Source of the DNA: Parietichytrium sp. I65-24A | Lineage: Eukaryota > Sar > Bigyra > Thraustochytrida > Thraustochytriidae | DNA length: 64,000 bases | Direction: 5' to 3' | NCBI GenBank assembly: GCA_012862575.1 | Contig: BLSF01000002.1 | Coordinates: 1,221,653 to 1,285,652 of the forward strand | Shown: one piece after another, positions 1,962-57,216 of the stretch | How positions within the stretch are numbered: position 1 is the first letter of the stretch | Layout: each line of letters opens with the position of its first letter | Notes under the pieces: model-generated | Database searches by the model: none | What the model was told of the DNA's origin: nothing | What the model saw: only the letters and a program-made list of their open reading frames with translations | Position numbers and translations under genes: made by a program

Positions 1962-3943
1962 AGCCGACGCAATTACCGAGTGTAACGTGGGATCAGTTTG
2001 AGACTACTAGCTCTGGACCACAAGAGCGCAAGAGCGTAAATGTCCTGGGAAAAAAAAAGAGGAAGGCATGATGAACCGGTGAGTTGCGACTTGTCTCAAT
2101 CAACAATGTCAATCATCACGGGCTAACAAGAGACTTGGAGACCGCAGGAGCAGCACAGCCACAGCCACATGCACATGCACATCAAGCCTCAGCCACGATG
2201 ACCATCGCATGCGACACGCAGAGTCGGCCACCTTTCTTCGAACTAAACCTCCTTCCATCCGTCCGTCCGTCCGTCCATTCTCCATTTTGCGATCCGCTAT
2301 TTTGCATTTCGCATTTGGCATTCATTTCCCAAGTTGTATCTTCCAACTTTCACTTTTCATCTTTCACTTTGCTATCACAGCACCCAACCCGCGCAACCTG
2401 CGCGGCAGAGCAAACACTGCCAAACAACCCTCCCTAGCGTTTTGCCTATCTGCTGTAAACCCGGGCTTACGGCTCAACGGATCTAAACGCCGGGTCCCCC
2501 ATGACGTGTATGGAGAAAGTGGTCGCATATGCATGTGCGTCTCACGGACAGAATCGTTACGGGAGACAGCCGCTCGGCGATCGAATTTTGGAACAGTCTT
2601 TGGATGTCTTTGGTGGTGTCTTTGGGACCTGCGACCAAGAACCAAGCGACCCCCATAAGCAATGCAGTGCACAGACGAGCAAGCCTGGGCTTGACGAAAC
2701 AACTAAACAGCGAGATATAGCGAAACAGCGAACAATGAAAAGAGCGGCCAGGCCACACACTAGTCCGCGTCTGGCCTCAGACGCGCAAGAGCACAGGGAT
2801 GGCGATCCCTTTCGTTCCTTTCGTCCACGAATGAATACGAAAGAGCTGCTTTAGCATGCTTTAGCGCTGTTAGTGCGCGGCGCGGCGCACACTGTTGTTG
2901 GTACTGGTTCGGGTACTGAATGTACAGTAACCAAGTGGACTGCGGCGTTACGAACGTAGGGAGCGGCTACTAGGCGCGTAGAAGGTGGCATGATGGAGAG
3001 ACAGAGAGTGGCGAGCGGGATTGGGCTTGTGCCACTTTCGAAAGATGGAAGTGATGGAAGATCCAGGTTGCGTTTTTTGGTTTTAGTGGTTTTAGACAGC
3101 GCTCCTCTTCTTGTTGTGTGTCGTCACAGCGTCTCGCGCCGATTCATGATCTGCGATCTGCGATCTGCGATATGCGATCAACCATCGGGTCTCCGGGCAT
3201 GCACGCACCAGTGGCGGGGAAATTTGTCTTGTTTCAATCTGGGCAAATGGACAAGGACGAGAAGGAGGATCGTCTCGGCTGAACGGCTCAGAACGCTAAG
3301 AGGAGCAACTATCCTTTTGAGATTGGTGTGTGATTGAAGATGATAGAAGTCACAAAGTAGCAAGTGTGCGTGTGCTCCGTGGTCTAGGCGGCTCTAAGAC
3401 ACACTTGGATTGCGTTCATTCTCCTGATCGCGCGAAAGCCGGCGCAAGGAGGAGGGGGAGGTTGGCCAAGTAGAGGAGTCCAAGGAGAGAGAGGCGAGAA
3501 GGACGGCTTGACAAGCACTTTGTGGCATTGAGAGTCGACTGCGAGTTGAGAGGGAAGGAGCCCTGGTTTCAGCCACTTTGCAGGTGCTGGGTTGGCCATT
3601 GGTCTTCTGGCGTGTCTGGCGAATGAATTGCATGGGAAAATAAAACTACAAAAGGTGACAGCACGAGTCTTGTGACCTTGATAGATTCAAAATCAGACCA
3701 ACGAAACAAGAGAGAGTGAGCCCTTTTTTCTCAGGCGTGTGTGTGAGTGTGTGAGTGAGTTTGTGGTGGCATGCGAGGACATTGCGAAAACCACGGTTGA
3801 TTGCTGCGTCGTCTTGCTCACATCTTGCCCTTGACAAGAGCCGGCAAAACCCAAACGCAGAGACTCGAGAGACTCGAGAGACTGGATAACCAAGGCAAAC
3901 CAAACCCAGATCTTCCGAATTCCGAAAAGCACGAATCCCAACC
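1962..3943. other. Gene-free stretch with simple repeats
   Basis: I see no convincing gene in these 2 kb. The open frames are short, overlap on both strands and have no domain. A TCCG tetranucleotide run lies at 2255-2276 and a 7-base GATCTGC tandem repeat at 3148-3179. The right part must hold the promoter of the GH19 gene. Confidence 0.6.
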
Positions 3944-5815
3944 ATGAAGGTCGCTCTGCTTCTGGGGGCTGCGTGCTCGATTTGGTCCGGCGAAGCGAAA
4001 TGTATCACAATCAGCCCGGTCGTTCCAACGGATGAGTGGTGCGAGCTGAACGGGTGCGAGGAAAACTACCCACAGTACTGCAAAGAAGTGCCAGATTCCG
4101 CGACGTACTCGCCAACCACCGCTGGAGACTCAGGCAACGGTTGCCTGGAGGGTTCCTTCGACATACAATACAGCAACCTTGGCCAGGAAATCGAAAGCGC
4201 CGCAACTGAGCTCGTGCAAGTCGAGATCCCAACCTCAATGAGCGTTACCGTCGAAGTGGTCACCGGAAGTGCGTACTCTCTTCAGATTCTCAGCAAAACC
4301 GCAAAAGAGATTGCTCTTGTGACAAACCTGGTTAGCAAAGACGGCGTTGTGTTGCTTGCTCGTATCCAAGACACTCTGAATAACTTGAATTACACCTCCT
4401 CAGGAGATAGCCTTTCTTCTGACGCTGCCAAGCTCTCCAAGCTTCAGGCTGGTTTGGTTGCTGCAGGAGTCGCTCTAGTTGGCCAGCAACAGAACCGCGC
4501 CGGGGCTCTTGTGCTGGCTACCGCAGCGATGGGAGCCTGTGCAAATGGAGCTTGCTCCAACGAACTCGTGGTGCGCATGACCATACCTTCGACCTCGGCC
4601 TGGGCCCAATCGGGGAAGGTGAAGACCAGCGTAGTGCAGAACAACGGAGGTGCAGTGGCGTTCCTTGACTTTAGCTCGGGAAGTCCCACCCCGGCACCCG
4701 TAACGGCGCCCGTGACAGCGCCCGTAACGGCGCCCGTAACAGCGCCAACGACGGCCCCTGGTTCCACCGGGGTGGCAGAGCAAGTCTATGCCGCATTGAC
4801 AGCAAAGAAGGCTAGCATTGACAGCCAGGTCCTTGTGACGGAAGCCGGGCCATCGACTCTCTATCGCTTCGATGACCTTTTAAAAGCAGTCAAGGTGATG
4901 CACGACACCGGGGCAGGTTCAATGAGGTTTTACGTAGGAGCTGACACTGATGGGACAAACGCAGTGAAATACGGTCTCTTGAACATCGCTGCATTTCTTG
5001 CGCAGAGCATGCAAGAGACCATTCGCTACGACGCTTGCGATGAGAACAGCTGGGACACGGTGATGGTAAATGGAGCTGCAAAGTACCCAATCAGTAACTC
5101 TTGCGGTCAATTGGGTCAGAGTTATCAGTCTTACACTTGCGGGGCAGGAGAGGAGCACATGCAGTGCGCAATCGACCCCAACATGCAAATTACTGCAAGC
5201 ACCACCGCTACTTGGTGGGGGGCACCTGGGCCGATGCGATGTGCGCCAAAGTCTGTGATTGCCACAACAGGTTACTGGGACGCCAGCGTGAGCTGCCCAA
5301 ACAACGTATGTTCCGCCTATCCTGGTCAGAAGGGAGGCGCTGAAGTACAGGGAAATGTGGCAAGCAATTCGGGTCGCACCGACATTGAGGGCTGTTGCTG
5401 GTGGGGGCGCGGAGTGATTCAGACTACCGGGCCTTGCAACATCGGCAAGCTCAACTACTACCTAGGTGCAAAAGCTGCATCCGATGGGAGGACCAGCGCG
5501 TTTCCGGATGTGAACTTTTGCACAACGCCAGACGCCATTTGCGCCAGCACGAAATATCCAGAGCTGCGCTGGGTGGCTGGGCTGTTCTATTGGATGAACA
5601 GCGTGGAGGCGTTTGCCACCGCAGAGTTCAACTACATGGCTCAGCTCAAGGCCTTTGCTGACGGCGGATTCCAAGGCACGGGTTTCATTGATGCCGTTTC
5701 CGGAATTGTGAATCGCGGTTGTCCAAAGCTCACTTGCTCCTCCGGCGAGGTGGACGGCGTGGCTAACCGTCGTGCGTACTTTTCCACTGCCCTCGCAAAC
5801 CTTGGGCTCGTATAG
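3944..5815 (+). CDS. Secreted GH19 chitinase-like protein with novel N-terminal region and PT-rich linker
   Basis: This 623-residue protein begins with a signal peptide (MKVALLLGAACSIWSGEAKC). Residues ~20-245 form a Cys-containing region I do not recognise. A linker at ~247-275 repeats Val-Thr-Ala-Pro (12-base DNA unit, about 4684-4760). Residues ~280-620 match glycoside hydrolase family 19: FLAQSMQETI carries the probable catalytic acid E358, CCWWGRGVIQTTG is the family's substrate-cleft segment, and a LRWVAGLFYWMN helix follows. GH19 enzymes hydrolyse beta-1,4-GlcNAc chains in chitin, and some relatives act on peptidoglycan. Many cysteines imply disulfides and an extracellular location. 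The N-terminal part could bind substrate or the cell surface. The ATG at 3944 is the natural start because the signal peptide follows at once. Confidence 0.88.
   Translation: MKVALLLGAACSIWSGEAKCITISPVVPTDEWCELNGCEENYPQYCKEVPDSATYSPTTAGDSGNGCLEGSFDIQYSNLGQEIESAATELVQVEIPTSMSVTVEVVTGSAYSLQILSKTAKEIALVTNLVSKDGVVLLARIQDTLNNLNYTSSGDSLSSDAAKLSKLQAGLVAAGVALVGQQQNRAGALVLATAAMGACANGACSNELVVRMTIPSTSAWAQSGKVKTSVVQNNGGAVAFLDFSSGSPTPAPVTAPVTAPVTAPVTAPTTAPGSTGVAEQVYAALTAKKASIDSQVLVTEAGPSTLYRFDDLLKAVKVMHDTGAGSMRFYVGADTDGTNAVKYGLLNIAAFLAQSMQETIRYDACDENSWDTVMVNGAAKYPISNSCGQLGQSYQSYTCGAGEEHMQCAIDPNMQITASTTATWWGAPGPMRCAPKSVIATTGYWDASVSCPNNVCSAYPGQKGGAEVQGNVASNSGRTDIEGCCWWGRGVIQTTGPCNIGKLNYYLGAKAASDGRTSAFPDVNFCTTPDAICASTKYPELRWVAGLFYWMNSVEAFATAEFNYMAQLKAFADGGFQGTGFIDAVSGIVNRGCPKLTCSSGEVDGVANRRAYFSTALANLGLV
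4684..4762 (+). repeat. 12-bp coding tandem repeat (Val-Thr-Ala-Pro linker)
   Basis: About four copies of a 12-base unit (gcgcccgtaacg type) encode the Pro/Thr linker of the GH19 protein. Such linkers are usually O-glycosylated and vary in copy number. Confidence 0.85.
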
Positions 5816-9137: not shown

Positions 9138-10088
9138 TCACTTTTTCTTCTTTCCTTTCTTGGCTTGAAAACTTTGCCATCCTTGTTTCTTTTGGTCCAT
9201 AATGAGATCCTTTTGCGCGTCCTTCGTTTCACGTTTGAGCTTGTCAAGCGTCTTCTTTTTCTTCCTCTTGACTGCTTCAGTGTCAGTGTCTTTCACTTGC
9301 AAGTGTTTCGGAACTTGCGCTACCACAGCGTTTGCAGTCAAACTCGAGTCGTCAGCTGGAAAGTCGAATTTCAAATGTTCGAATGCCACCTCTTCCTGGT
9401 TTTTGTACTTTTCGTACTGCACCACGCAGCCGTTGGTGGTTACCTGCATGACCACCACTGGGTACCATTTGCTATCTCCGGAGAATCGTGCTTCGGCGCT
9501 CATCCCAATGAGCACCTTCGTTCTGTCGTAAGTCGAAGCGTTTTTAATCGGCCGAACTCTGCTAGCTTTAATTCTCTTTTCCTCTCCATTGTGCAAGTAC
9601 AATACCCGCACCATTCCGTCTTCATCTGCTGGTCCTTTCAGCACTGCGCCTTGCCACACGTCATTGCCATCGTCGTATGCCTCGCACCGGCTTCCGGGAA
9701 TGATCGCGTCTCGTAGTCCTATCGATTTTGCCTTTTTCGAGGGCAGCGATGCCATCACTTCATCTATGCCTGCAGCAGGACGCTTCTCCGGCATAGGCTT
9801 TGCCGGCTCCGCCCCTGCAGACTCCTCCACTGCTACTTGCTCAATTTTATTGACGTGAGACGCTTTGACATCATCATCATCATCATCATGATCATCAACA
9901 GATGTGACTTTTTTGCTCTCACCCTCACCCTCGCCGTCCTCCTCGTCATCGCTTTCGTCCGAGTCATCAACAGCCGCCATGGCTTCTTTCAGCGCGTCAA
10001 CCAGCTCCTTATAAGCAGGGTTGCCAGGGTCCTTTTCCAGCATGGCCTCGGCTTGCGCCAGCTGCTCTTCTAGTCCGTTCAAGTCCAT
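9138..10088 (-). CDS. SMNDC1: SMNDC1/SPF30-like splicing factor
   Basis: This 316-residue protein starts at the ATG at 10088 (MDLNGLEEQLAQAEAMLEKD). The open frame extends to 10217 but the extra part lacks family similarity. The N-terminal helical pair (residues 1-45) matches SPF30. Then comes an acidic Asp/Glu stretch (~47-75) encoded partly by a CAT repeat, a Tudor domain (~130-180, RCEAYDDGNDVWQGAV), a second Tudor-like segment (~194-245, SAEARFSGDSKWYPVVV), and a Lys-rich C-terminus ending in KKQGWQSFQAKKGKKKK. SMNDC1 binds symmetric dimethyl-arginine on Sm and other spliceosomal proteins and is needed for tri-snRNP joining in the nucleus. Human SMNDC1 has one Tudor domain, so the second segment may be a divergent copy or a family extension. 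Confidence 0.85.
   Translation of the reverse strand: MDLNGLEEQLAQAEAMLEKDPGNPAYKELVDALKEAMAAVDDSDESDDEEDGEGEGESKKVTSVDDHDDDDDDVKASHVNKIEQVAVEESAGAEPAKPMPEKRPAAGIDEVMASLPSKKAKSIGLRDAIIPGSRCEAYDDGNDVWQGAVLKGPADEDGMVRVLYLHNGEEKRIKASRVRPIKNASTYDRTKVLIGMSAEARFSGDSKWYPVVVMQVTTNGCVVQYEKYKNQEEVAFEHLKFDFPADDSSLTANAVVAQVPKHLQVKDTDTEAVKRKKKKTLDKLKRETKDAQKDLIMDQKKQGWQSFQAKKGKKKK
9867..9898. repeat. CAT trinucleotide run coding poly-Asp
   Basis: A trinucleotide repeat inside the SMNDC1-like gene encodes a run of aspartates. Confidence 0.8.
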
Positions 10089-10754
10089 TTTTTCTACAAC
10101 TACCCCAAATTCCAAACCTAACAGCTCGCCGGTCAATCGTTTCTCCCGCGGCCCAATCGATCGCAAGCCGCTCTTTCCAACGCTTCTCCACGCGGTAGAC
10201 TTTACCGCGCAATGCACGAGCGGCAGACCTTACTTTTACCACTCAAGACACCGCTAGTCCGCACCTGGACCTGCGTTTCTGCGTTTCTGTGTTTCTGCTG
10301 TTTCTGCGTTTCTGCGTTTCTGTGTTTCTGCGCTGCAGCGCAGTTCCGGAACCCTTTCCTTTGCTCCTCGAAGAACGAGGAACCTTCTTCTAGTCCCCGC
10401 GTACCCCTACGGTTTCGCCAAATTTCGCCAGGTCCAACGTCTCCCTCCACACACTTGCGCAAGAGGAGCACCTAGGACCACTCACCCTAAACACTAGCCC
10501 CCGAGGAGTCCATCCAAAGATCACGCGGGAGAGTTCTAGACGGCCATGTAACAATACCACTAGTAGTCTGCATGGGACGCGACTCTCGCGTACTCGAGTA
10601 CCCCACACGTGCGCAGCGCAGATTGATTTCGTACGTTACTCTCGTACGCCGCGCACCCCCATCTTAACCGAAAACCTAGCCCCGCAGCGGGTTCGCATGC
10701 GTGTGTATTGCTAAGAGGGACTGACGGAGGAGAGAGGATTTGCACTCGAGCGAG
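10089..10754. promoter_or_regulatory. Divergent promoter region with TTTCTG(C/T)G minisatellite
   Basis: This 666-base region separates the starts of the SMNDC1-like gene (-) and the Cys-rich membrane protein (+), so it must hold both promoters. A minisatellite of 8-9-base units (gtttctgcg/gtttctgtg) fills 10271-10332. A GTAC palindrome (tactcgagta) lies at 10591-10600 and CGTACG motifs near 10630. I see no TATA box that I would defend. Confidence 0.55.
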
Positions 10755-21274: not shown

Positions 21275-22241
21275 CAGTTTGGCTTTCCTCCAATCTTTGG
21301 AAAAACTTTGCGCCTCAGCGCTCATTGAACACATTTGAAAATTAATCACAGAATCACATCACAGAATCACAATTTTCGAAAACTCACAGTCAATCTTCCG
21401 ACTCCATTCCGCCATTGGCGAAGCTTGAACCGGAGCACCGTTCGAGAAACTTTGTCTTCCTGACTAGGTTGTCGATCTGCGAAAGCATATGATCTGATTA
21501 TCTCTCAGTACTGATGCTTTGCATTTTGGGCCAACCACATCTCTTCGAATCCTGTTCGCTTTGCAACCTCACGAGATTTACGTTGTCAATCGCACCAAAT
21601 TACTTTTACGCTTGAAGCGACGGATGGAGATCTCTGTTCAAGCACAATCCCTGGCGCACATTTGTGGTCGCAAAGATGAGTTCGCCAGCTCACATAGAGG
21701 AAGGGCGATACGAAAGCTTATGGATAGCCCCCCATTATCATCTACTCTAAGCCTACACCTTGACCAAAAGGTTCGTAACGGTAACAATTTTTCGGAACAT
21801 AACATTTACGATTTTTGCAACGTTGGAAGCTATATTGTACTGAGCACCCTCCACGACATTGCCCTGCTCGGAAATCAAATCGTTGTTGGAACATAAGTCC
21901 TTTCCAAGCCGTGGAGGGAGGGCCTGGGAATATGGTCACACAACAACAGCGGGAGACTGACTGTCGAGAGCGACTAGCTTTAGCGTTCAGACACAGTGAG
22001 TGATAAAGAGGTCTTGTACTCTTTGGTGTAGTGACTTGGTAAACTTGGTAAACTTGGTACTCTACCGGAAGGCGGGCAGGTAGTGGCGAGTGCATGCGAT
22101 TGCACGGCGACGAAAGAAGCGCGTAGAACACACCGACCGACCACGTGAGAAAGCGCCGATTGGTTGCTCTCCTGCGCGAGAACAGGGCACGCAAAGGCTG
22201 CGAAGGGGAAGGTCATATTGTATAGTGGACAGGCCGGCAGA
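21275..22241. other. Intergenic spacer with tectonic promoter
   Basis: 967 bases without a supported gene. A 125-residue plus frame at 21519-21896 has no domain and is AT-rich. A short tandem (aacttggt, 22035-22060) precedes the tectonic gene. Confidence 0.5.
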
Positions 22242-24284
22242 ATGAGGCCGAGGGTATGGACGAGTGCAGTCTGGGCCACAAGAAGCTTGGGACTGGCCGC
22301 CGCACAGACGGGTTGGGACAACAGGCAGTATGACGCAGAGAATCGCGTGACCGTGCCGCTGACGGACTCGTTGTGGTCGTATGTGACGCTCAGGAGTGAG
22401 GCGCCGACTGTGTTTCCGAACCTTCCAACGGGATGCACCTGTGTCAACGAGGAGCAGACAAGCGCGCAGTGCACGTCTTTCCTATGCGAGGCGACCTGCA
22501 ATCTCAACATCGGACTCTGTGATCCATATTGCTGCAGTGATCCAGACTGCACGACGGAGCAGATAGAGCAATTTGAGGCCACTGGGGAGTGCCTTTATGA
22601 TGGAACAAAGGAGGCTGCGCGAGTTTGCACCGACTTAACCTCGTTGGACCTTGTGAACGAAAAGTACAACATGTACGTAGATAGCGACAACGAGGCGCTG
22701 GATGGTTTCTTGTGCGTATCGGTGTACAACACACCCTTTGAGGGCGAATTTTTTCAGCCACAAACCACCCTGATAAACAACCCAGAGCTCCTGGACGATC
22801 CGGCTTATCGCCCGGAGTTTTCTTTCCAGACAGAAGCTGCTACTTCCGGTTCTGAATCGGAAGTTTATATTGATGGGGTAAAGATTGTGGCCGCGATCTC
22901 TTTAAATTCGACTCTGTGGTCGTCGTGGGGTGGCTACTTGAGCTTGCCTACCGCAGGTCCGGACGGCACCTGCACTTCGTCAAACTACGTGACATTTGCC
23001 AGAGATGTCTCTCAGTACAGTTGCGTGCAGCCCATTTCTGACTTGGCGTCATTGTGTTCGGCCACAAATGGGCCGCTAAGGTCCGACTGGATCACATCCA
23101 GCCTTGTACTTGGAACCACTCCGCAATCGACACTGAGTGACAAGTCGAGCTCAACTTGGGTGTCAGTAAGCGCGGGGAACTTGTTTGCGAGGGATGCTGA
23201 CGGCGTTCTCACAACGATTGAGGGTGGCATTCCGACAACGGAGTGGTCCGAAGAAACCCAAACTTGCTACAATGCAGCAACGGAGATTCAGTTTACTATT
23301 CGGTACGGTGTAAATGGCTACATCAGCTCGGTGAGCGCAGATATGGGGTACTCCAACCTGACGGCAACCTCGGCATCTGCTGTCATGCAGCGATTCTCGG
23401 TAAAGTTCATCAACACGGACTCCATCGATTCTGCGGAAGGAGTCATTGACCGGCAGGTTTCTGGATACCCTGGATATATTCAAGGCTTGCCAGTCCAGGC
23501 TGGAAACCTAACGAGCATAGGGAGCGATGGCGACACTCAAAAAGATGCGGTTGAATATTTTACCAAAGGCCTGTATATCATGAGCGCAAGTGGCCCAAAA
23601 GGCTCATGCTTGACTGAGGATGGATCGCTCTCTTGGATTGATGCAATTGAGGAGCAACCAATCACATCGACGTCTCCGGTCCTCTTCGGTGTCGACACTG
23701 TCTCCGCGTGCTCAGTAAAGCTTAGCTATGAAGATTTTCAGTCGAGATCGACGTGGTGCAGGGACTTGTCATCGATTCCGATGTTTGATCTTGGTGCAAA
23801 CGTGGTGGGAATATACGGTAATTCGGACCCGCTAAAGGCTTGGGACTGGGTGACTCTGGACGTGGACGCTTCGGACCTTTTGGCTACCAAAGTATCCACT
23901 ACAGCCGGATCACTTGTGTGCAATAACATGGTTGATCGCCTCGATATCGAGATCCTCTGGACCGATTCTGGTGACGTGTCCAACCCTCAGCCGATGATCT
24001 TGTCAGCACGGGCGGTTTTGAAGCAGTCCGACTGGACGTGGCGCAAGCCGCTAGTGGCAGGCACCACGCAACAATTCCACTTCACGCATTCCGTGACCTT
24101 TATCAAAACCGAGGCGACGGACACCGAGAACTACAAGCCCGACGTGGCCCCTATTATTCCCCAGCTGCCATCCGACGTTTTCTACCCATTCGACATTGCC
24201 ACTTCGTCAGCATCATATACATCTCCTCTATTCACCACCCTCGCTATTCCAGTGGCTCTTGCTCTCTGGCATCTGCGAGTCTGA
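22242..24284 (+). CDS. Tectonic-family ciliary transition-zone protein
   Basis: 680 residues from the ATG at 22242, where a signal peptide begins (MRPRVWTSAVWATRSLGLAAAQ); the upstream frame has no ATG. The Cys-rich N-terminal segment (~65-110) shows the CDPYCCSDPDC signature of tectonics. The middle and C-terminal parts carry family landmarks: SGYPGYIQGLPVQAG (~406-420), VLFGVDTVSACSVKL (~479-493) and NPQPMILSARA. A C-terminal hydrophobic stretch follows (~655-676). Tectonics sit at the ciliary transition zone in the MKS/B9 module and gate entry of membrane proteins into the cilium. Its presence implies that the organism makes a flagellum at some stage. Assignment to TCTN1, 2 or 3 is not meaningful outside animals. 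Confidence 0.87.
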   Translation: MRPRVWTSAVWATRSLGLAAAQTGWDNRQYDAENRVTVPLTDSLWSYVTLRSEAPTVFPNLPTGCTCVNEEQTSAQCTSFLCEATCNLNIGLCDPYCCSDPDCTTEQIEQFEATGECLYDGTKEAARVCTDLTSLDLVNEKYNMYVDSDNEALDGFLCVSVYNTPFEGEFFQPQTTLINNPELLDDPAYRPEFSFQTEAATSGSESEVYIDGVKIVAAISLNSTLWSSWGGYLSLPTAGPDGTCTSSNYVTFARDVSQYSCVQPISDLASLCSATNGPLRSDWITSSLVLGTTPQSTLSDKSSSTWVSVSAGNLFARDADGVLTTIEGGIPTTEWSEETQTCYNAATEIQFTIRYGVNGYISSVSADMGYSNLTATSASAVMQRFSVKFINTDSIDSAEGVIDRQVSGYPGYIQGLPVQAGNLTSIGSDGDTQKDAVEYFTKGLYIMSASGPKGSCLTEDGSLSWIDAIEEQPITSTSPVLFGVDTVSACSVKLSYEDFQSRSTWCRDLSSIPMFDLGANVVGIYGNSDPLKAWDWVTLDVDASDLLATKVSTTAGSLVCNNMVDRLDIEILWTDSGDVSNPQPMILSARAVLKQSDWTWRKPLVAGTTQQFHFTHSVTFIKTEATDTENYKPDVAPIIPQLPSDVFYPFDIATSSASYTSPLFTTLAIPVALALWHLRV

Positions 24285-25829
24285 AGCGTTTTCTTTGGCC
24301 TCCTATTTTGACTGCGATAAAAAGATGACACAGGTCCATTCACGAAATTTTCATGTTTTTCACATCCACTCTATCCTTCCAAACCTCTTTTGAACCCATC
24401 ACTGCAGCTGGACGTCTCTGGACCCACTTGCTACGACTCTGTGTCTGTGCGATGCTGACGCTTACTGCGCACTTTGCTTTCGCACGTTGACACGTCAGCA
24501 ATTTTTCATTTCGAAGGAAGCACTTGCAAAGGAAAAATCGAACTCGTGAAAATGTACTACTACTCGTGTAAATCGTCTATCTAGGACCTTAGCGTTCTGT
24601 ATAATTTGCTGTTACGCTCCACCAGTAAGAGCAGTTAGCACTGCGTAGAAAATGTTCTGGATTCTCCTAAGGTAATGCATAGCTAAAGTACTCACCTTCT
24701 GGGAATTATGATTTCTATTCCTAACTACTAGAAGAGGTATATGGTTTATCATAGGTGTGGTTTGGATTGAATGGAAGAAAGAGAAGGAAAAAAGGCGCGA
24801 GCTTCTACTACATGTAACGAGAAGCAAGTCATTCACTCACTTTCTGCATTCTGACTTGTGTGACTTGTGATAAATACGATTAAAATTATACCAGGTACAG
24901 TCAGAGCGAGTATGATGATGGGCGTTCACTGCCAATTTACAATTTACAATTGACAATTGACAATTCACAAAGAGAGCTAAACGCAGGATAATCTTACCTG
25001 ATGCTAAGTGTTTTTTTAAACTCACTCATTCACCTTCCTCTTACTACCACACCATACCACACCCACTACAGCGCATTACCCCACTCACATACCTACAACT
25101 CTAGTGTTCGCGAGGGAAAACTTCCCTCACCTCTGCTCCCTAAGAGTCTCAGCGAATGTATTAGCAAATCCTATCCAGTCGCGGCTACTGTCAACCATAA
25201 CAATCGGCATACTGCGCGTACTCAGAAACCTTGTAGAGGGAAAAGTGAGAATTACCGTCCACCCAATTGAACGCCCCTGCGGAACGCATTTGCGCGTACC
25301 CTGCCCGTGTGCGTACGCTCGTACGATCGTACGCTCCACGCTCGCAGGTCCTCGCGGAACCACCGACCCCGACCCTGCACCTTGCACCTTTACTTGCACG
25401 CATCTCCACTTGGTCAGTTCGTCAGTTCGTCAGTGGTCGCCGAGGCGCGAGATATTGGGCACCGGTGAAGTGTCCTCGCAGGTACGTTCTGGCGGAGTAA
25501 AGTGTCCCCGCAGAAACGGCTCGGCAGAGTTTGGGGCTGCGTGGTTTGAGAAGAGCAGACTTGTGGAGGGTTTCGCAGTGATTGAACATATTGAGATATT
25601 GGGAGGAGACGGACATAATACGGAGGCACAGCCGGTGTAAGGAAAGGAGTCGATTGGGTGACGTGTTGGAGTGGATTGATTCACAGTCTTGCAACACGTG
25701 AGTGGGAAACAGAATTCAGAAGATCGAACGAACAAATCTGCGCGAAAAAAAGAGAAAGTAACCCCGACGTCGGGCGACAGGCGGGCGGCCGTGGCGCTCG
25801 GTAAGATCTGGACTCTCTATCTCTACACA
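24285..25829. other. Gene-free 1.5 kb upstream of IRE1
   Basis: A 7-10-base ACAATTT/ACAATTG tandem array lies at 24932-24970. Near 25465-25530 two imperfect copies of a ~32-base segment (gtgaagtgtcctcgcag / gtaaagtgtccccgcag) stand side by side. No gene seen; the right end is the IRE1 promoter. Confidence 0.5.
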
Positions 25830-28800
25830 ATGCGTGGAAGAAGGAAATGGATGCGGCCGATGGTTGCGTCGTTGACTTTCAGCGCCCTTCTGATCCTGGC
25901 TTCTGCCGAAGTAGACATGGACTCGAGCAGCAGCGGATTGGCAGTCGTTGAAGTAGACATGGATTCGATGGACGACCCTTCGGACTCTCAGGTGCACTGG
26001 CAGACGAGGATAGGAAGCGGAGGTGTGAAAGGTGTGCATCAGGACGACGATGACGAGCATCAGGATCACGAAGATGACGAGGTCGGGGGGCCAGATATTC
26101 TGGTGGTGGGGACAGTTGACGGCGAGTTGCATGGGATCGGTCCGGACGGGACGACGTTTTGGTCCAATGACGACGTAGGCGGACCAACGATCAAGAGCTT
26201 TCAGACGCACGAATCTGGAATGGGAGGGGCGGTTGTGCCTGGCGAAGATGGACTGCTCTATCTTTTCTCCGAGGAGAACGGTCTGGCGTTGCATCACCTG
26301 TCGATCAAAGATTTGGTCAATGCTGCCCCTTTTACTGAGAGTCTCGGAGAGAACAAGCAAAAGGTACGCGTGGTTGGTGAGAAGAAGACTTCGATCTACG
26401 AGTTAGATCCGAACACTGGCGAGAGACTTCGAGTGTTCACTTCGGAGAGTGGGAGCTTGCTCAATGGCAAGTGGGACGAAGAGAGCAGCCCACAGCCTGT
26501 GAGGCGGTACACCGACGACGAGACGCCGTTTAAAGACGCTCCGCCAATATCTATTGGACGAGTTGATTATCGCGTGCGAGCTTTCGACGCCATGTCTGGT
26601 TTGGAACTGTGGAACTTCACGTACGGGCAATTCATTTCTAATCAGAAAGACGTCGCTCAGATAAACCCCAACACCTTGGATACCAATGGTGTTGACGGGC
26701 ACGAATTACCACAGCGATTCACCATCTCTGGGATGCCTGTGACCACTGTCTTTGGTGCGCAGAGAGAGTTTCAGAGGCACGATCCTTCATGGCGGTATGT
26801 GTCGGAGCTCTCCGTGGCTCAGTCTGGGCAAAATGTCATTGGGGACATTTCTCGGGCAAGAGAAATATACTTGCAGCGAATTCATTTTCGAAACGGAGAT
26901 TCGCAAGTGTACGCAACTTCTGGACGACCGGGGAAACCGCTCGCTTGCAGCGAGACTGTGTTCCCGGCGCTCACCAGTGACGGCGACCGAGCTATCATCT
27001 CCAGCTCGTCTCCGTCCGGGCAATCATGCGAGGCAAATCACATGGATAACGATTTTCCTCTTCAAGGGCCACATAGGGTGACAAACCAAATTCAAATCCT
27101 TCGCAGCCAGGGTTTCAGCCGGGTTGGTTTTCTTCCCTCCCCAAATGACCACGTTGCGGAGTCCGACGAGACTGCGCTAGCCAATAAAGACTTGAGCACT
27201 AGTGTTAGCAGCACTCGCGACGACAAAAGGGCGCCCAAGCGAATCTCCCTTCCTTCGTTTGCAGAGGCAAAGAATGACGTCCGAACCCTGCAATACGCTG
27301 TGGGAATTTTGATTGTGCTCTTGTCTTACTTTGTCCTCCAAAGTCTGGAACGGCCCAGTGGAAATAACGTTGGCCAGTCGATCCTCGACACAATCTTGAG
27401 GCGCGCACCTGGTCTCGGGTCTCCCTCGACTGGTGGTGTCGGATCTGGATTCACGAGAGAGGTCCAATTTGATCCCGCAAACAACACGGAAAAGGTCGGT
27501 GATCTAGTAGTCTCTCTGGACTCTATCCTGGGCCGCGGATGCCAAGGCACGACCGTTTTGAAAGGCTCCCTGCGAGGGCGACCGGTGGCTGTGAAGAAAG
27601 TGCTTGCGAGCCAATTTAAGCTCGCCGAGAAGGAAATCGACCTCCTCATTCGATCAGACAAACATCCAAACATTGTCAGATATTATCACACAGAGGTAAC
27701 GCGCGACTTTATTTTCCTGGCACTGGAACTTTGTGATGCTACCCTCGAGTCCGCGGTGGCGAGGCTTCGAGAGATCAATCGCAAGCGCAAAGACTCGGCA
27801 AACAAAAGCGCTCGAAAGAATTTGCGAATCCCGTCAGGCTCGCTTACATTCTTGGAGGCCATCGCCAGCGCAACAAATCATTTGCACACGCTTCGGATTG
27901 TGCATTGCGATATCAAGCCTGCCAACATCCTTGTGTCGCTAGTGGTCGACGACTCGGAGATAGGTGAGTCCTTGGAAGACGCAAGCCAATGCGACACTCT
28001 TCTTTTAGGTATAGGTGATTTGTACGAGCCCAAGCTCTCTGACATGGGCCTGGGCCGAAAGTTCGCGGGAAACACGAGCTCGATATTTGGTGGTACGAGT
28101 ATTCACGGTTCTGGCACAATCGGATGGCGTGCCCCGGAGCTGTTGCGCGGCCTTACGGTCAACGGGAAGAAGAATGTGAACGAGCATGACATAGCAGTTC
28201 GGCTCGGGCGGAAAGTGGATGTTTTTTCGCTTGGTTGCGTCTTTTTCTATGTCATTTCTGGCGGGCATCACCCTTTTGGTGAACATTTAGATCGTGAGCG
28301 AAACATTTTGCAAGGCGAACCAGTTAATCTTGATAAGATTAAGCACTACCCGCTGGCTCACGATCTCATTGGCAAGATGATCCAGATGGAACCTGCAAAG
28401 CGTCCCTCAATGGAAGAGTGTTTGCTCCACCCTCTGCTATGGAAGCCTGCTCACAAGCTAGAATTTATCAAACATGTCAGTGACCGCCTAGAGGCGGAGA
28501 GGGGTCAAGACGGAAAGCCAAAGGCGATGAGTGTCCCCGAAACTCTTCTGCATGAGCACTTCGAGAAAAGCTCCGAGGCGGTCATAGGGAAGCAAGGCTG
28601 GCTTCAACGCCTTCACCCGGCCTTGCGGCAGGACGTTGTGGACTCGAAGCGGCGGTACTATGCAACGCACTCTCTTCGAGACTTGCTTCGATACATTCGC
28701 AACAGGCTTGCGCACTTTCATGAGCTGGATGGCCCAATTCGGGATTTGCTCTCTCCATTACCTGAAGGGTTTCTGGATCAATTCTTGGGAAGTAATAGGT

Positions 28801-29480
28801 TTCCGAATCTGTTGCTGGCGTGCTACACGTTTGTGTTGGAAACTTGCGCTCACGAGCAGGAATTCGAAAAGTTGATTGGTTCATGCATTGCTGCGAAACA
28901 TAGCGGGGAGTCCTCCACGTGGTTAGCCCGTGCAGAGGCTCACGATAGCAAGATGCAATCCTTCCGCACTATGGCCAGCCTGCGAGGATCGAAGGATGAA
29001 GTAGAAGGGAACACGGACAACTCTGAGGAGGGCAACCAAGGCCAAGAACAGCCTGCACTTTGCAATCCAGGGAGCAGCGAGGACGGTGGCCACATTGACG
29101 GGCGAAGAACACCTCCCGGATTTGAGCACATCACAAAGACCCCTACAAGCAGTGCTTTGGAGGAGATGAACTGGAGACAATCCAGCTCTCCCCCTTCCTC
29201 CATACCCTTTGGTGGGAACAAAAATGCGTTCTCAAGCTTGGCTTCGAACCTGCGTCAAAAGCAGCAGAGCCCTCCGCCTCACAACCCTTTCCCGTCAAGC
29301 AAGTCTCCAAACCCAAAACCACCGCGACGCTACCAAGGTGATGCTAAAAAGGACCCGCATTACAAGACAAAACTTTGCCTCAATTGGGAGAATTCCGAGG
29401 GAACATTTTGTAAAATGGGCGACAGGTGCTTTTTCGCGCATGGTCCCGACGAGCTGCGTGAGAAGCCTGACAACATGTAA
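25830..29480 (+). CDS. IRE1: IRE1-like ER stress kinase/RNase with C-terminal CCCH zinc finger
   Basis: 1216 residues from the ATG at 25830, where a signal peptide starts (MRGRRKWMRPMVASLTFSALLILASAE). The lumenal part (~30-480) contains PQQ/beta-propeller-like strands (VVGTVDGELHGIGPDG). A transmembrane helix spans ~487-506. The kinase follows: glycine loop GRGCQGT, K589 in VAVKK, HCDIKPANIL with D694, and SDMGLG (D738-M-G instead of DFG). The KEN RNase keeps Y944, R957, N958 and H962, matching the human catalytic set. After a Ser/Pro-rich linker (~990-1175) the protein ends with a TTP-like finger: YKTKLC, C1183-x10-C1194-x5-C1200-x3-H1204, then FAHGPDELRE. IRE1 senses unfolded protein and cleaves RNA. 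The finger, continuous in the same open frame, could recruit AU-rich RNA. Confidence 0.93.
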   Translation: MRGRRKWMRPMVASLTFSALLILASAEVDMDSSSSGLAVVEVDMDSMDDPSDSQVHWQTRIGSGGVKGVHQDDDDEHQDHEDDEVGGPDILVVGTVDGELHGIGPDGTTFWSNDDVGGPTIKSFQTHESGMGGAVVPGEDGLLYLFSEENGLALHHLSIKDLVNAAPFTESLGENKQKVRVVGEKKTSIYELDPNTGERLRVFTSESGSLLNGKWDEESSPQPVRRYTDDETPFKDAPPISIGRVDYRVRAFDAMSGLELWNFTYGQFISNQKDVAQINPNTLDTNGVDGHELPQRFTISGMPVTTVFGAQREFQRHDPSWRYVSELSVAQSGQNVIGDISRAREIYLQRIHFRNGDSQVYATSGRPGKPLACSETVFPALTSDGDRAIISSSSPSGQSCEANHMDNDFPLQGPHRVTNQIQILRSQGFSRVGFLPSPNDHVAESDETALANKDLSTSVSSTRDDKRAPKRISLPSFAEAKNDVRTLQYAVGILIVLLSYFVLQSLERPSGNNVGQSILDTILRRAPGLGSPSTGGVGSGFTREVQFDPANNTEKVGDLVVSLDSILGRGCQGTTVLKGSLRGRPVAVKKVLASQFKLAEKEIDLLIRSDKHPNIVRYYHTEVTRDFIFLALELCDATLESAVARLREINRKRKDSANKSARKNLRIPSGSLTFLEAIASATNHLHTLRIVHCDIKPANILVSLVVDDSEIGESLEDASQCDTLLLGIGDLYEPKLSDMGLGRKFAGNTSSIFGGTSIHGSGTIGWRAPELLRGLTVNGKKNVNEHDIAVRLGRKVDVFSLGCVFFYVISGGHHPFGEHLDRERNILQGEPVNLDKIKHYPLAHDLIGKMIQMEPAKRPSMEECLLHPLLWKPAHKLEFIKHVSDRLEAERGQDGKPKAMSVPETLLHEHFEKSSEAVIGKQGWLQRLHPALRQDVVDSKRRYYATHSLRDLLRYIRNRLAHFHELDGPIRDLLSPLPEGFLDQFLGSNRFPNLLLACYTFVLETCAHEQEFEKLIGSCIAAKHSGESSTWLARAEAHDSKMQSFRTMASLRGSKDEVEGNTDNSEEGNQGQEQPALCNPGSSEDGGHIDGRRTPPGFEHITKTPTSSALEEMNWRQSSSPPSSIPFGGNKNAFSSLASNLRQKQQSPPPHNPFPSSKSPNPKPPRRYQGDAKKDPHYKTKLCLNWENSEGTFCKMGDRCFFAHGPDELREKPDNM

Positions 29481-29703
29481 TCTTTTATTGTACTTTGAAC
29501 GAGCCATACCCATGTTGGCACATATTTTACAACTGACAATGTATTACAATAAGAATGTCAATTCACAAAACAAATCTAATCCAGTTGCGGTCGTGACTTC
29601 TGTCACCGTCTCCGCCGCAACCAAAATTTATAAGGTAGCATACAACTAGCTAGCTTTTATATAGTGCTCTATGGTCCAACAAAAGAGAAGATTAAAAAGG
29701 AAT
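29481..29703. other. Spacer between IRE1 and the tRNA gene
   Basis: AT-rich 223 bases holding the IRE1 3' flank. The oligo-T that would end pol III transcription of the minus-strand tRNA corresponds to an A run near 29690-29700 (aaaaagg), which is weak. Confidence 0.4.
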
Positions 29704-29798
29704 GACCACGGTAAGACTCGAACTCACAACCTCCTGATATCAATTGGACACAAGTTCCAATCGTAGTCAGACGCGCTGTCCAATTGCGCCACGCGGTC
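29704..29798 (-). tRNA. tRNA-Arg(ACG) with 22-nt intron
   Basis: The minus strand folds as a complete tRNA: acceptor GACCGCG/CGTGGTC (one G-T pair), D stem GCGC/GCGC, anticodon stem TCTGA/TCAGG, T stem GTGAG/CTTAC with TTCGAGT loop. The anticodon ACG lies at 29764-29762, with A37 at 29761. A 22-base intron at 29760-29739 sits at the canonical position after base 37. The spliced length is 73 bases, without encoded CCA. A34 would be edited to inosine to read CGN arginine codons. The intron holds a 9-base perfect complement to the D-loop region (see findings). Confidence 0.93.
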
Positions 29799-30166: not shown

Positions 30167-31221
30167 TTAGATGACACCGTCAGCCTTGAGCTTTGAAATG
30201 ACCTCATCGACCGACTCGACCTTGATACCAGCCTGGCGGACTGGAGGATCTTCGACAGAGACAATCTCGAGGCGGGAGTCGATATCCACGCCAAGGTCAG
30301 AGGCAGTGAATGCATCAATCTTCTTCTTCTTGGCCTTCATGATGTTTGGAAGAGTGGCGTAGCGAGGTTCGTTGAGACGCAAGTCAGCAGTGACGACAGC
30401 AGGGAGCTTCATCTCGAGGTTCTGGACACCAGTGTCGATCTCCTTGGTAAGCTTGAGGGCGCCCCCCTCGACTGCGAGCTTAGACGCAAAGGTAGCCTGT
30501 GGCCAGTCCATCAGACCAGCGAGCATCTGGCCGGTAGCGTTGGTGTCATCATCGATGGCTTGCTTGCCCACGATAACAAGGTCTGGCTTCTCCTTTTCTA
30601 CAATTGCCTTGAGGCACTTTGCCACTGCCAAAGGCTCTACCGCAGTCGGGTCGCTACCAGCCAGACCAGGATCCACGTGGATCGCTCTGTCGCATCCCAT
30701 AGCAAGCGCGGACCTGAGCTGCTCCTGGGAGGTCTTTCCTCCGATGGTCACAGCGATGACCTCCTTTGCGATCTTCTTCTCCTTGAGACGGACAGCCTCC
30801 TCCACTGCGATCTCACAGAACGGGTTCATCGACATCTTCGCCGACAAGTCCACGCCCTTCTTGTCTGGCTTGACGCGGATTTTCACCGCATAGTCCTGTG
30901 CACATCATCGCGCATCATCCAATCCACGTCAGCATCAATCAATCAATCTATCTATCTATCCATCCATCTACCGACCGTCCTCCAACCTCTCTATCCGTAA
31001 AACCATCCCTTCCCTTCCCCGCCGCATCTAACATCGCGCATCATCCCACCTCAGGCGCACATGTCAAAACACCACTCCCGACTCTCCAATCCTCGGGCAT
31101 CCCATGTTGGAAGACCAAACTTTGCCACCTTTCGACACGCTTCCACACGCTTCCAAACGCTGCACAACTCTGTCCGAACGCAACTTACGATCACCCTCTT
31201 CACTCCAACGAGAACCTTCAT
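30167..31221 (-). CDS. ETFB: Electron transfer flavoprotein subunit beta (2 exons)
   Basis: Exon 1 (31221-31189) encodes [11 protein letters not shown] and exon 2 (30895-30167) continues [16 protein letters not shown], in phase 0 across an intron with gtaagt and cacag ends. The joined product is 253 residues, matching the usual ~255. Family features include the [20 protein letters not shown] segment, the [11 protein letters not shown] region, [31 protein letters not shown], and a C-terminal pairing arm ([11 protein letters not shown]). ETF-beta binds AMP, pairs with ETF-alpha in the mitochondrial matrix, and carries electrons from acyl-CoA dehydrogenases to ETF-QO. Exon 2 alone would lose the first beta strand, so exon 1 is well supported. 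Confidence 0.94.
30933..30969. repeat. AATC/ATCT/ATCC repeats inside the ETFB intron
   Basis: Three successive tetranucleotide runs lie near the acceptor of the ETFB intron (minus sense). Confidence 0.85.
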
Positions 31222-54570: not shown

Positions 54571-57216
54571 GAGGGCTGCGCGAGAGGTCTTTTTAGAAAA
54601 GTAATTATACGTACATATTCTTTTTGTCTGCAAACACATTTTTTCTTGGGCGAGCATGCCTCGCCTTCAGAAACCCATCAACATTTCGACACCAACAACT
54701 TGACTTCCTTTTTGACGGCCAACATGATGTCGAGGTCATGTCGCCATCCCAGGCGCAAGAACCTACGACAGTGACGGCGGCGACACGACCACCTTCACGC
54801 ACTCCAGAGAGGTCTTCAGCCCGCACGGGCACGTCTGCCCAGGAGAACAAAGCGGAAACAGCATACCCAGCTCCGTCCTTCAGAGGCCTTTCCGCTGAGT
54901 TGATCGAGAAGCTATCTGACTTCCATAAACCCAATAAAACTGCAACTCCCGCGAAAACAAGGCCGACAACGAAATCATAAGTTTTCGGCGCTGCCTTGCA
55001 AGCAGTATAATCGCCCTTTGATCTTGGGGACCTTCCGCTCCAATCGAGACCCTCACTGCCAAGGAACTCAGTCCAAGCCGGGGACTCCTTTACCCTGGCT
55101 GAGCAGCTCTTCTTATGAGGCCCAACTCAACTTTCCCCTGCCAAAGCAAAAGGAGAGCGAAGGACAATTGCGATCCACATTTCAGCGTGTTGGCAACATC
55201 CCAACGTCTGGGTAATCATTGCCCAAGGCGGTTTGCTCTAGAACGACAACCTCTCTGCTGATGTCATTGACCAGAAAACATGCACAGTACCAATTGTTCG
55301 CAAATTTCTCCCGAGTTAGCAAGCATTCTGCTTTCCCTAGAGGGAGTGCAGCAACACATCTGCTTCAGATCTGATGTCGACAAGTACCTTCTTGAGATCT
55401 ATCAAGGTTCCGAAAGCAATAATCCCAGCTCTAAAACTCGCAGCGACGAAGTTTCTCTGCAAGTTTCAACAACGACAACTTTTCTTTTGCAAGTGCCAAG
55501 CTAAATTCTGAATTCTGCCAAGTAGGCCTGACATTGGATAGGCGAAACTGCTAATGCGTCGAGCCGGCATAGCCCTCGAAACATGATCGAAGGAAATCTT
55601 TGAAGGATATGCCCAGCCTAGCCCTTGCCAATCCTTGCCTTCAGATTAGGGTGGGAAAAAATGTGATCTGCCTGCTCGAGCGGAACTCACTCTGCCCAAG
55701 GTTTGATAGATGCAATCAAGAAATAATCAAAGCCCGGAAAATTGAAATCGAAACCATGCAGTCCAGGCAGCGGAGTTTTAGTTCACACAAACACGACGAA
55801 GATCGAAGAAGACTAAGAAGACCGCCGAAATCTAGCTAGGCGATCAATCTCTTGCGTTATGCCCACGCAGCGCGAATCAAGATTCACGCGTTGTTTGAGA
55901 AGATTGTCATCCTCCCTCTCGCTTGCCAGTTCCGACTACCAAACTCCACTTGTCTCTGCCTGTCTATCATACTCCCTATGCTCCCTATCCATCTATCTAT
56001 CTGTAATTTTTAGTAACCACCACACATGGCTCTAATTGGCTCTACTAGCCTAGCTAGGTAAGTCATATGATAGAGAGTTACTATAGATAGCTAGATTTTC
56101 TGGATTATATAGCTTCCTACGCTGTTAATTAGAGTGATAGAGAGATAGGGCTCTAGTCTAGCTAGTCAAGAGAGCAGTTCCCTCCTCCACCTTCTTTCCA
56201 AACAAACCCTACGCAACTAAGAGTGCTGCACAGTTCAACCACTGGTACGCTAATCAAGGTGACCGACCAATAGCAGATGCTAGCGTTCCCCGAATGGAAT
56301 TAAAAGAACAGAATGAGAAGGGAAATGAAAGAGTTGGAGGGCCTGACTGTGAGTGGCAGCAAACCAAACAATGAGCGCGGAAGGAAGGAAGACTTGCCTT
56401 CTTACTCAATATGAGTAATCAACATTAAGTCCAGGTACGCATACAACAGAAAGTGTGCACTACTGTACTTGGGTATCTAGTGATATTATGCGCACTCCTA
56501 CAGTCGTACTCGAGTACTACCTAGCGCACTACTTATATTATTATTATTAGTGGACGAAAAAAATGCAGCGGAGGCGAACGATAGTGTCCCCTTAGAACAT
56601 GTCGTTTTGTGAGGGCGAGAACTTGAAGCTTCAAAGTTGTGTGAGAGAGCGGCTCTGTGAGAGGGAAGCAGAAAGAGATGGGAATGAAACGCTTGAATTG
56701 ACTGTGGATTCACTCCTTCACTGTCAGAAGTCAAAGAAGTCAAAGGTCAGAATGCAGAGTACTCAGTACCTAACTTGCTGTCAAATCAATAAAAAATTTA
56801 ATCGGAATGAGATGGATTGAGAGTGCGAGAGCGCGAGAGTGGGTTGTCTGGGTTGACTGACAGTGAGAGAGAGCCTCTGAGAGAGAGCAATTGGGTGGAC
56901 TTTGTCAAATGAGCGAGTTCGGAACAGAGAGAAAGAGATCGTAAGCAGCGGCGTATTCCGAGCCAAAACGAGTGAGCAGAGACAGAGACAGAGACAGAGA
57001 CAGAATAGACAGAGACAGATATAGAGATAAAGACAGTTGATCTGAGTACCGAAGGCGAGGACGGGAGCGCTGTTTGCTGAGAGAACTGCGTCTGGGGACG
57101 TCGAGCCGCGCTCTAGGGAAAGAGCAAGTTGAAGAATTCGTGCGAGAGAGAAGGCTCCGCAGCGGAGTTGAGGCTTGGAAGAAGGGAGACTAGGCGAGCT
57201 CGCACATTTGGACACG
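54571..57216. other. Gene-poor 2.6 kb, possible decayed ORFs, GA/GACAGA repeats
   Basis: Plus-strand short frames in different phases occur at 54624-54980, 55018-55215, 55280-55504 and 55600-55839, each without a domain. They could be remnants of one broken gene or chance. TAGCTAG-rich sequence lies near 56040-56170, GTAC palindromes at 56507-56516 and 56759-56770, GA tracts near 56865-56890 and a GACAGA array at 56977-57021 just before the GTPase gene. Confidence 0.45.
56977..57021 (+). repeat. GACAGA hexamer array
   Basis: Purine-rich hexamers on the sense strand about 200 bases before the large GTPase start. Confidence 0.8.

Follow-up and report, generated by a model that had tools for sequence, protein, structure and literature searches.

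An IRE1 with a C-terminal TTP-type CCCH zinc finger in a labyrinthulid-like stramenopile

One reading frame for sensor, kinase, nuclease and finger

In the window, by which we mean the whole stretch of 64,000 nucleotides that was analysed, the plus strand is stop-free for 1266 codons between positions 25680 and 29480. This frame encodes, in one chain, a lumenal part, a transmembrane helix, a kinase, a KEN domain and, behind a linker of 164 residues, a CCCH finger (Table 1). A preliminary description of the locus had read a single open frame as an IRE1 that ends in a CCCH finger like that of TTP, and this is upheld by the stop-free frame and by the Pfam and PDB matches given below. An artefactual gene model, or two separate genes, is rejected in view of the open frame and of relatives in which KEN domain and finger are likewise joined, although transcripts of this species may yet be spliced; the two are joined in MMETSP transcript models of a labyrinthulid (P0003) and of ochrophyte-type sequences (P0162, P0176, P0182 and P0197). 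The KEN domain has a single match in the whole 42.5 Mb assembly, and tree placement identifies the gene as the IRE1 of a labyrinthulid-like stramenopile, a protist of marine type.

Table 1. Features of the IRE1-CCCH gene, with window positions and the basis of each assignment
Feature	Position	Strand	Basis
IRE1-CCCH coding sequence	25830..29480	+	1216 aa from ATG at 25830; intron-free reading suffices
Hydrophobic leader at the N-terminus (residues 1-26), probably a signal peptide	25830..25907	+	By-eye reading
Lumenal sensor core (residues 84-287)	26079..26690	+	Weak similarity to the lumenal domains of IRE1, IRE2 and PERK
Transmembrane helix (residues 486-504)	27285..27341	+	Top hydrophobic 19-mer N-terminal of kinase; mean Kyte-Doolittle 1.77
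Kinase (residues 564-869)	27519..28436	+	PF00069, 1.9e-29; HCDIKP at 692, SDMG at 737
KEN RNase (residues 876-1014)	28455..28871	+	PF06479 (Ribonuc_2-5A), 2.3e-24
Catalytic Y944, R957, N958, H962	28659..28715	+	Alignment columns
Weakly conserved KEN-finger linker (residues 1019-1182)	28884..29375	+	Alignment, tail reading
PPGFE, candidate GYF-domain ligand (residues 1095-1099)	29112..29126	+	PPGF[DE] motif
CCCH finger, C-x10-C-x5-C-x3-H (residues 1178-1211)	29361..29462	+	Pfam, alignment, finger profile

The IRE1 part of the protein

Among the sensors of the unfolded protein response, IRE1 is very widely conserved, and its choice of RNA is known mainly from yeasts, animals and plants. It is established for the family that ER stress leads the lumenal domain to form oligomers, which in turn renders the kinase and the KEN nuclease active. 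The window protein has the same lumenal sensor, transmembrane helix, kinase and KEN domain with four catalytic residues as yeast Ire1p, human ERN1/ERN2 and plant IRE1, and its lumenal sensor, its transmembrane helix, the kinase preceding KEN and the Tyr/Arg/Asn/His set mark it in sequence as a member of this family. The lumenal part gave weak PDB sequence matches to IRE2 (9i3u, 5.5e-4), yeast IRE1 (2be1, 0.003) and human IRE1 (2hz6, 0.003), with designed beta-propellers and a PQQ protein, each matching over one repeat, ranked above them, and a weak beta-propeller Pfam match lies at residues 91-203. Yeast IRE1 2rio was matched at 3.7e-78 over residues 554-1013, which span the kinase and the adjoining KEN domain. 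The four catalytic residues said beforehand to be kept were found at the positions claimed for them; in an alignment of 143 of 239 rows (96 near-duplicates being left out), Y, R and N are present in all 143 rows and H in 142, with one gap. The window IRE1 is predicted, as in the rest of the family, to cleave RNA on ER stress.

A conserved finger of the TTP type

Translation confirms the C-x10-C-x5-C-x3-H spacing and the TTP-type lead (YKTKLC) and tail (FAHGPDELR) that had been claimed for the finger, whose zinc ligands are C1183, C1194, C1200 and H1204. When the protein was scanned, the UNK-like CCCH model PF25427 matched the finger at 9.8e-6 and 25.8 bits, under the model cut-off of 31.1, and the general CCCH model PF00642 gave an E-value of 0.068; when the genome was scanned with both models, the finger was found by PF25427 alone (31.4 bits against the same cut-off) and was absent from the PF00642 matches. 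Beyond this match, no other feature of Unkempt was seen. Searched against the PDB, a profile of six labyrinthulid fingers found 9y10, a C3H1 protein with two fingers (3.6e-19), TIS11d (1rgo, 1.5e-18) and TTP (1m9o, 1.1e-17), with Roquin and Unkempt ranking below these three, and 6nzl and MEX-5 also among the nearest. We take 6nzl to be POS-1, and the nearest PDB fingers (TTP/TIS11d, 6nzl, Roquin, Unkempt and MEX-5) are presumably all those of RNA binders. The finger is of the TTP type in sequence, and we infer that it binds RNA. A finger that instead governs oligomerisation, turnover or partner recruitment without RNA contact would be in keeping with the other conserved, protein-like motifs of the tail described below, but its nearest solved relatives are the fingers of RNA binders and in green algae the C-terminus of IRE1 gained a CCCH pair of its own, and we consider this reading unlikely.

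Like ZFP36/TTP, the window protein has the YKT lead and the FAHG..ELR tail, and labyrinthulids also have PPGF in the same polypeptide; ZFP36/TTP, however, carries tandem C-x8-C-x5-C-x3-H fingers, as opposed to the one finger with a first spacing of x10 seen here, which differs at two positions and is fused to an ER nuclease. Compared with TIS11d finger 1, with which it shares YKT and FAHG-x-x-ELR, the finger has K for E ahead of the first Cys and M for Y past the second. According to the 2004 work of Hudson, this Glu and this Tyr of TIS11d are said to touch RNA. Residue-level TIS11d contacts were not found in the accessible part of PMC12710939. The Tyr site is occupied by M, M, R, F, M and H in six labyrinthulid rows, and a TTP-type tandem-finger protein is encoded elsewhere in the genome (L012). 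The preliminary description had given AU-rich RNA as an example of what the finger might select. For a finger that directs KEN to AU-rich 3'UTRs speaks the top rank of TTP-family fingers in the profile search, together with the shared lead and tail; with a single finger, both substitutions, a variable Tyr site and a separate tandem-finger protein against it, the proposal is unsupported and appears very improbable, and binding of UAUU-type AU-rich RNA by the window finger is doubtful. Because there is one finger, which departs from TTP at two sites, its specificity may be low.

All four ligands, together with A1203 and E1208, are identical in every row of a 25-row alignment spanning the clade, and W1186, F1202, E1208, L1209 and R1210 are kept among non-ligand residues. 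The mean majority share is 0.65 for the finger, 0.51 for KEN and 0.19 for the linker; conservation of the finger exceeds chance, and the finger is constrained, the linker unconstrained. Spacing between ligands varies within the clade, with x5, x8 or x10 to the second Cys and x5 or x7 to the third. Variable spacing, a single finger and the absence of the TTP residues at two positions would suit a general anchor: one that contacts RNA, ribosomes or the translocon largely regardless of sequence, so that IRE1 stays close to ER mRNAs under translation but does not select among them; this has a small share of the probability in our estimate, as the five residues kept over 25 rows go beyond the needs of a generic basic tail.

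Distribution across relatives

To our knowledge, the IRE1 forms studied so far are without a C-terminal CCCH finger. In a clade of 116 IRE1 rows, made up of labyrinthulids, diatoms, other ochrophytes and unnamed rows, the finger is present in 109, of which 108 fit the finger pattern and P0247 has a longer first spacing; three rows break off within the finger (P0137, P0141 and P0014) and four end or stray before it (P0005, P0200, P0206 and P0257). In a 62-row tree chosen from 260 rows, where P0005, P0014 and P0200 carried no finger label, all 35 finger-bearing rows form one branch (support 97/96; 96% of 200 bootstrap trees), and the finger is absent from plant, fungal and animal IRE1 rows. A quick 76-row tree gave six changes, because P0014, P0137, P0141 and P0200 were labelled as fingerless and the green P0078 as finger-bearing; the tails of those four are broken or partial models, and loss of the finger within the clade is rejected. 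A finger peculiar to this genome is likewise rejected in view of finger-bearing IRE1s in labyrinthulids, diatoms and other ochrophytes. The most likely reading of these sequences is that the finger is ancient and was inherited within a stramenopile-containing clade.

Six IRE1s of the chlorophyte branch (Trebouxia P0078 and Astrephomene P0254 among them) likewise have C-terminal CCCH modules, but these are tandem pairs of a different type on a branch of their own, apparently a second, separate fusion; as a different tandem CCCH stands at the same end of IRE1, such modules probably arrived there twice. The view that known IRE1s stop soon after KEN does not hold for deposited stramenopile and chlorophyte sequences. 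The fusion is already present in deposited sequences and no published description of it was found: a full-text literature search, with subscription journals outside its scope, gave none among the matches listed, and no IRE1-CCCH protein was found in the accessible parts of PMC4891664 and PMC12898128.

The linker and a candidate GIGYF ligand

The PPGF[DE] motif, spotted by eye before statistics were applied, occurs in all six readable labyrinthulid linkers (shuffle P of 5e-5 to 1e-3 each) and is limited to labyrinthulids among the rows compared, with one PPGV elsewhere; across the assembly its codon sites number 43, scarcely above the 35 of a reversed control. Its presence in the labyrinthulid IRE1 linker is a new observation. 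In the accessible parts of the sources, PPG-phi is defined as the ligand of GIGYF-type GYF domains (PMC12171015), and TTP is described as binding GIGYF2 via PPPPGF (PMC12249416). The same genome has a GIGYF-like gene (L002), whose GYF domain is nearest to that of GIGYF1 (7ruq, 1.7e-16) and is preceded by a YxxxxL-phi motif. Both the PPG-phi motif and, in L002, an SMY2/GIGYF-type partner are recognisable by sequence in this organism, and the labyrinthulid IRE1 motif is a putative GIGYF-binding site. In the ochrophyte-type and other group, GW-x-R...W stands N-terminal of the finger in 56 of 90 rows and GG[EV]D C-terminal of it in 78.

Docking box, hairpins and KEN stringency

In yeast, HAC1 mRNA docks before cleavage on a basic linker motif of Ire1 outside kinase and KEN, and the HAC1 3' element has a role in recruitment only under translational repression of the mRNA, according to the accessible part of PMC4279078; this is a precedent for mRNA docking by IRE1 of the kind proposed below. 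The net charge of the basic juxtamembrane box is +1 to +5 in six labyrinthulid rows and +3 in each of four metazoan rows, and a basic linker is kept in finger-bearing P0008 (+10), P0203 (+8), P0219 and P0152 (both +7). The idea that the finger replaces the docking box fails, since the box is weak in metazoan rows too and basic in some finger-bearing ones. A scan for hairpins with CNGCNGN loops, over about 1.5 kb either side of each of 15 bZIP loci, found no HAC1-type pair 3' of the bZIP domain, with none or one hairpin at each past the start of that domain; L035 has an extra hairpin upstream, so that its pair flanks the domain, unlike in HAC1.

The 2021 work of Li reportedly gives an acidic residue at Sc992 with a basic one at Sc1059 as the mark of the S. 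pombe-like promiscuous KEN. The window IRE1 has H and L at these sites, which departs from that pattern; sites 988/992/1059 of the same numbering read EHL, DHY, EHL, EHY, EMA, EHY and DNV in seven labyrinthulid rows, and the promiscuous pattern fits 35 of 85 ochrophyte-type rows. The labyrinthulid KENs match neither published pattern, so that no stringency of cleavage is predicted from them. As KEN is intact, the finger would add to hairpin recognition and not replace it, contrary to the earlier view of it as an alternative to that of HAC1/XBP1.

Proposed working and meaning

We propose, with a probability of roughly 0.6, that the finger is a C-terminal mRNA-docking module choosing substrates for KEN, to which the labyrinthulid tail may add GIGYF repression. 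Under ER stress the lumenal domain would oligomerise and, as for IRE1s in general, switch on kinase and KEN; the finger, on its flexible linker behind KEN, would dock chosen mRNAs at clusters of IRE1, biasing which transcripts are cleaved, and clustering would multiply many weak single-finger contacts into a useful affinity. In labyrinthulids, PPGF in the linker would recruit a GIGYF-type adaptor, and docked mRNAs would be translationally repressed. The fuller version, in which stramenopile IRE1 has, from early in the clade onwards, selected its mRNAs by itself, with labyrinthulid GIGYF recruitment in addition, is tentative and stands at well under even odds.

If true, labyrinthulids would unite a repressor of the TTP kind with the nuclease of IRE1 in a single molecule. 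The finger kept across labyrinthulids and ochrophytes, together with what is probably a second CCCH fusion, that of green algae, points to a docking solution that is apparently unstudied, to judge from the literature searched; since relatives such as diatoms have the finger as well, IRE1 there may choose its RNA targets in an unstudied way, and the finger would offer a handle, modular and open to mutation, on how substrates are chosen in diatoms and in oil-producing thraustochytrids.

IRE1 with a C-terminal CCCH finger

The plus-strand frame is open across 25680-29480 and encodes 1216 amino acids counted from the ATG at 25830; Pfam places a kinase, a KEN domain and a CCCH finger within it (table) and the catalytic residues Y944, R957, N958 and H962 are all intact, so that the single-frame joining of IRE1 to a C-terminal CCCH finger, put forward in the preliminary description, stands. 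When searched against PDB by sequence, the kinase-KEN block is matched by yeast IRE1 (3.7e-78), while the lumenal part gives weak matches to the lumenal domains of IRE1, IRE2 and PERK (5.5e-4 to about 0.03) and stronger ones, via one PQQ-like repeat, to designed beta-propellers. A single KEN domain was detected across the 42.5 Mb assembly. There is no sign of further IRE1 exons, because the downstream DNA is occupied by a tRNA-Arg and an electron transfer flavoprotein gene. Upstream lies a Tectonic-domain protein (TCTN_DUF1619), of a ciliary transition-zone family, and the window also contains three long open frames.

Features of the IRE1-CCCH protein, of the surrounding window and of the GIGYF-like locus
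Feature	Position	Strand	Remarks
Kinase	residues 564-869		Pfam
KEN	residues 876-1014		Pfam
CCCH finger	residues 1178-1211		Pfam, score under that model's cut-off
tRNA-Arg (acg)	29703-29798	minus	about 220 bases 3' of the IRE1 stop codon
Electron transfer flavoprotein gene	30170-30904	minus	downstream of IRE1
Tectonic-domain protein	22149-24281	plus	upstream of IRE1
Open frame	3890-5812	plus	641 codons; no Pfam match at 0.001
Open frame	9138-10229	minus	363 codons; no Pfam match at 0.001
Open frame	57172-60399	plus	1076 codons; no Pfam match at 0.001
L002, GIGYF-like protein	G000:C31:187034-187168	minus	GYF domain match

Distribution and origin of the fusion

Protein searches (best 120 of 480, best 120 of 358 and 32 of 32) gave 259 distinct proteins, or 260 rows with the window sequence, each assigned to a group according to its place in the tree or its best BLAST hit. 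Among these rows from the matches listed, in which finger-bearing rows are possibly favoured since all three query regions spanned the finger, 116 belong to a finger clade, 6 are green-branch IRE1s with tandem CCCH and 138 are fingerless; the last are plants, fungi, animals and the green alga Myrmecia where the organism is given, and include P0258 and P0259, listed without a KEN domain. The finger pattern is matched by 108 of the 116 clade rows. In P0247 the finger is present but its first spacing is longer; the sequences of P0137, P0141 and P0014 stop within the finger at apparent exon ends, and those of P0005, P0200, P0206 and P0257 terminate or go wrong upstream of it. No case of finger absence was found in this clade among the listed rows with a readable tail. 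Among the clade members bearing the finger are Ochromonas danica, Chrysoparadoxa australica, Cylindrotheca fusiformis, Amphora, Nitzschia inconspicua, Pseudo-nitzschia multistriata, Seminavis robusta, Corethron hystrix and Triparma laevis, and a further branch comprises P0202, P0203, P0207, P0219 and P0239-P0247. The architecture is real, conserved and old. The view that known IRE1 proteins end soon after the KEN domain does not hold for deposited sequences, some of which already have the CCCH domain annotated (P0006, P0078, P0254); among the papers listed by literature searches none describes IRE1-CCCH, which is a new form of IRE1, though present in those deposits.

Among the matches listed, P0002 stands closest to the window protein, being 75% identical to it across 403 columns of kinase and KEN; next come P0001 and P0003-P0006, and these six form with the window protein one labyrinthulid branch of seven rows (support 100/99). 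One of them, P0005 from the labyrinthulomycete Hondaea fermentalgiana, has unrelated sequence after KEN in its deposited model, whose end is probably wrong, since its closest tree relative, P0001, has both linker and finger.

In a tree built from 62 selected rows and confined to 424 columns of the kinase and KEN domains, all 35 finger rows lie on one side of a single branch (support 97/96; 96% of 200 bootstrap trees). P0211 and P0226, which lack the finger, are placed close to this clade, yet outside it. Most rows share a finger start of C-x-[NHD]-W, and the finger end resembles FAHG-x-x-ELR. The finger is read as one ancient gain in a stramenopile-containing clade, the tree alone being compatible with gain or loss. 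Chlorophyte IRE1s carry C-terminal tandem CCCH fingers of a type unlike the window finger (P0250, P0253-P0256, P0078), nested within the plant/green branch (100/99); the Myrmecia model P0011 is without them. The Trebouxia fingers best match 6nzl (POS-1) and cleavage and polyadenylation factor subunit 4. This was apparently a separate fusion, with the tree alone again allowing gain or loss.

Finger type and specificity

When a profile of six labyrinthulid fingers was searched against PDB, TTP-family tandem fingers came first, followed by 6nzl, Roquin, Unkempt and MEX-5. The genome encodes a TTP-type tandem protein of its own (L012), and the nearest other fingers in it are 41-47% identical to the IRE1 finger. 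Compared with TIS11d finger 1, the window finger has K instead of E ahead of the first Cys and M instead of Y past the second, positions reported to touch RNA. The finger is therefore TTP-like yet not a TTP; the likeness proposed earlier survives, whereas the AU-rich targeting suggested with it has no basis.

Linker motifs and a possible GIGYF connection

The 164-residue linker between KEN and finger is weakly conserved, but all six readable labyrinthulid tails (that of P0005 is unreadable) contain PPGF with D or E as the next residue, with a shuffle probability per protein of 5e-5 to 1e-3, computed after the motif had been spotted by eye. Its codon pattern occurs at 43 sites on both strands of the assembly against 35 for the reversed control; such rarity makes a chance occurrence in a 0.5 kb linker unlikely, but there is barely any enrichment genome-wide. 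Outside the labyrinthulids, the other finger-bearing rows examined contain no PPGF and one PPGV. Instead, 56 of 90 ochrophyte-type and other rows (e.g. P0012, P0133, P0152) have GW-x-R...W within 110 residues before the finger and 78 of 90 have GG[EV]D within 60 residues after it, compared with 3/12 and 0/12 in the further branch (P0202 etc.) and 0/5 for each in the labyrinthulid rows counted.

Two papers describe PPG-phi as the ligand of SMY2-type GYF domains, and GIGYF2 as bound by TTP and ZNF598 via PPPPGF (PMC12171015, PMC12249416). Among 10 GYF matches in the assembly, that of L002 is GIGYF1-like (7ruq, 1.7e-16); L002 also has an upstream YSRDELL, of the YxxxxL-phi kind, a long and charged stretch resembling a coiled coil, and two KPAWG...SLK-IQE repeats.

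Proposed role of the finger

In yeast, HAC1 mRNA docks before cleavage on an Ire1 motif of basic character that lies outside the kinase and RNase, and a HAC1 3' element recruits the mRNA while it is translationally repressed (PMC4279078). An analogy with the finger has limits: labyrinthulid juxtamembrane linkers are weakly basic, but those of four metazoan rows are too, and some finger-bearing IRE1s retain a basic linker. The labyrinthulid KEN interface residues match neither of the two patterns, stringent and promiscuous, defined in Li 2021 (PMC8104961). By analogy with yeast, the likeliest role of the finger would be RNA docking, providing a site for mRNA behind KEN, and PPGF may be a means of repressing the docked mRNA; a link of labyrinthulid IRE1 to GIGYF is offered as a new and testable proposal.
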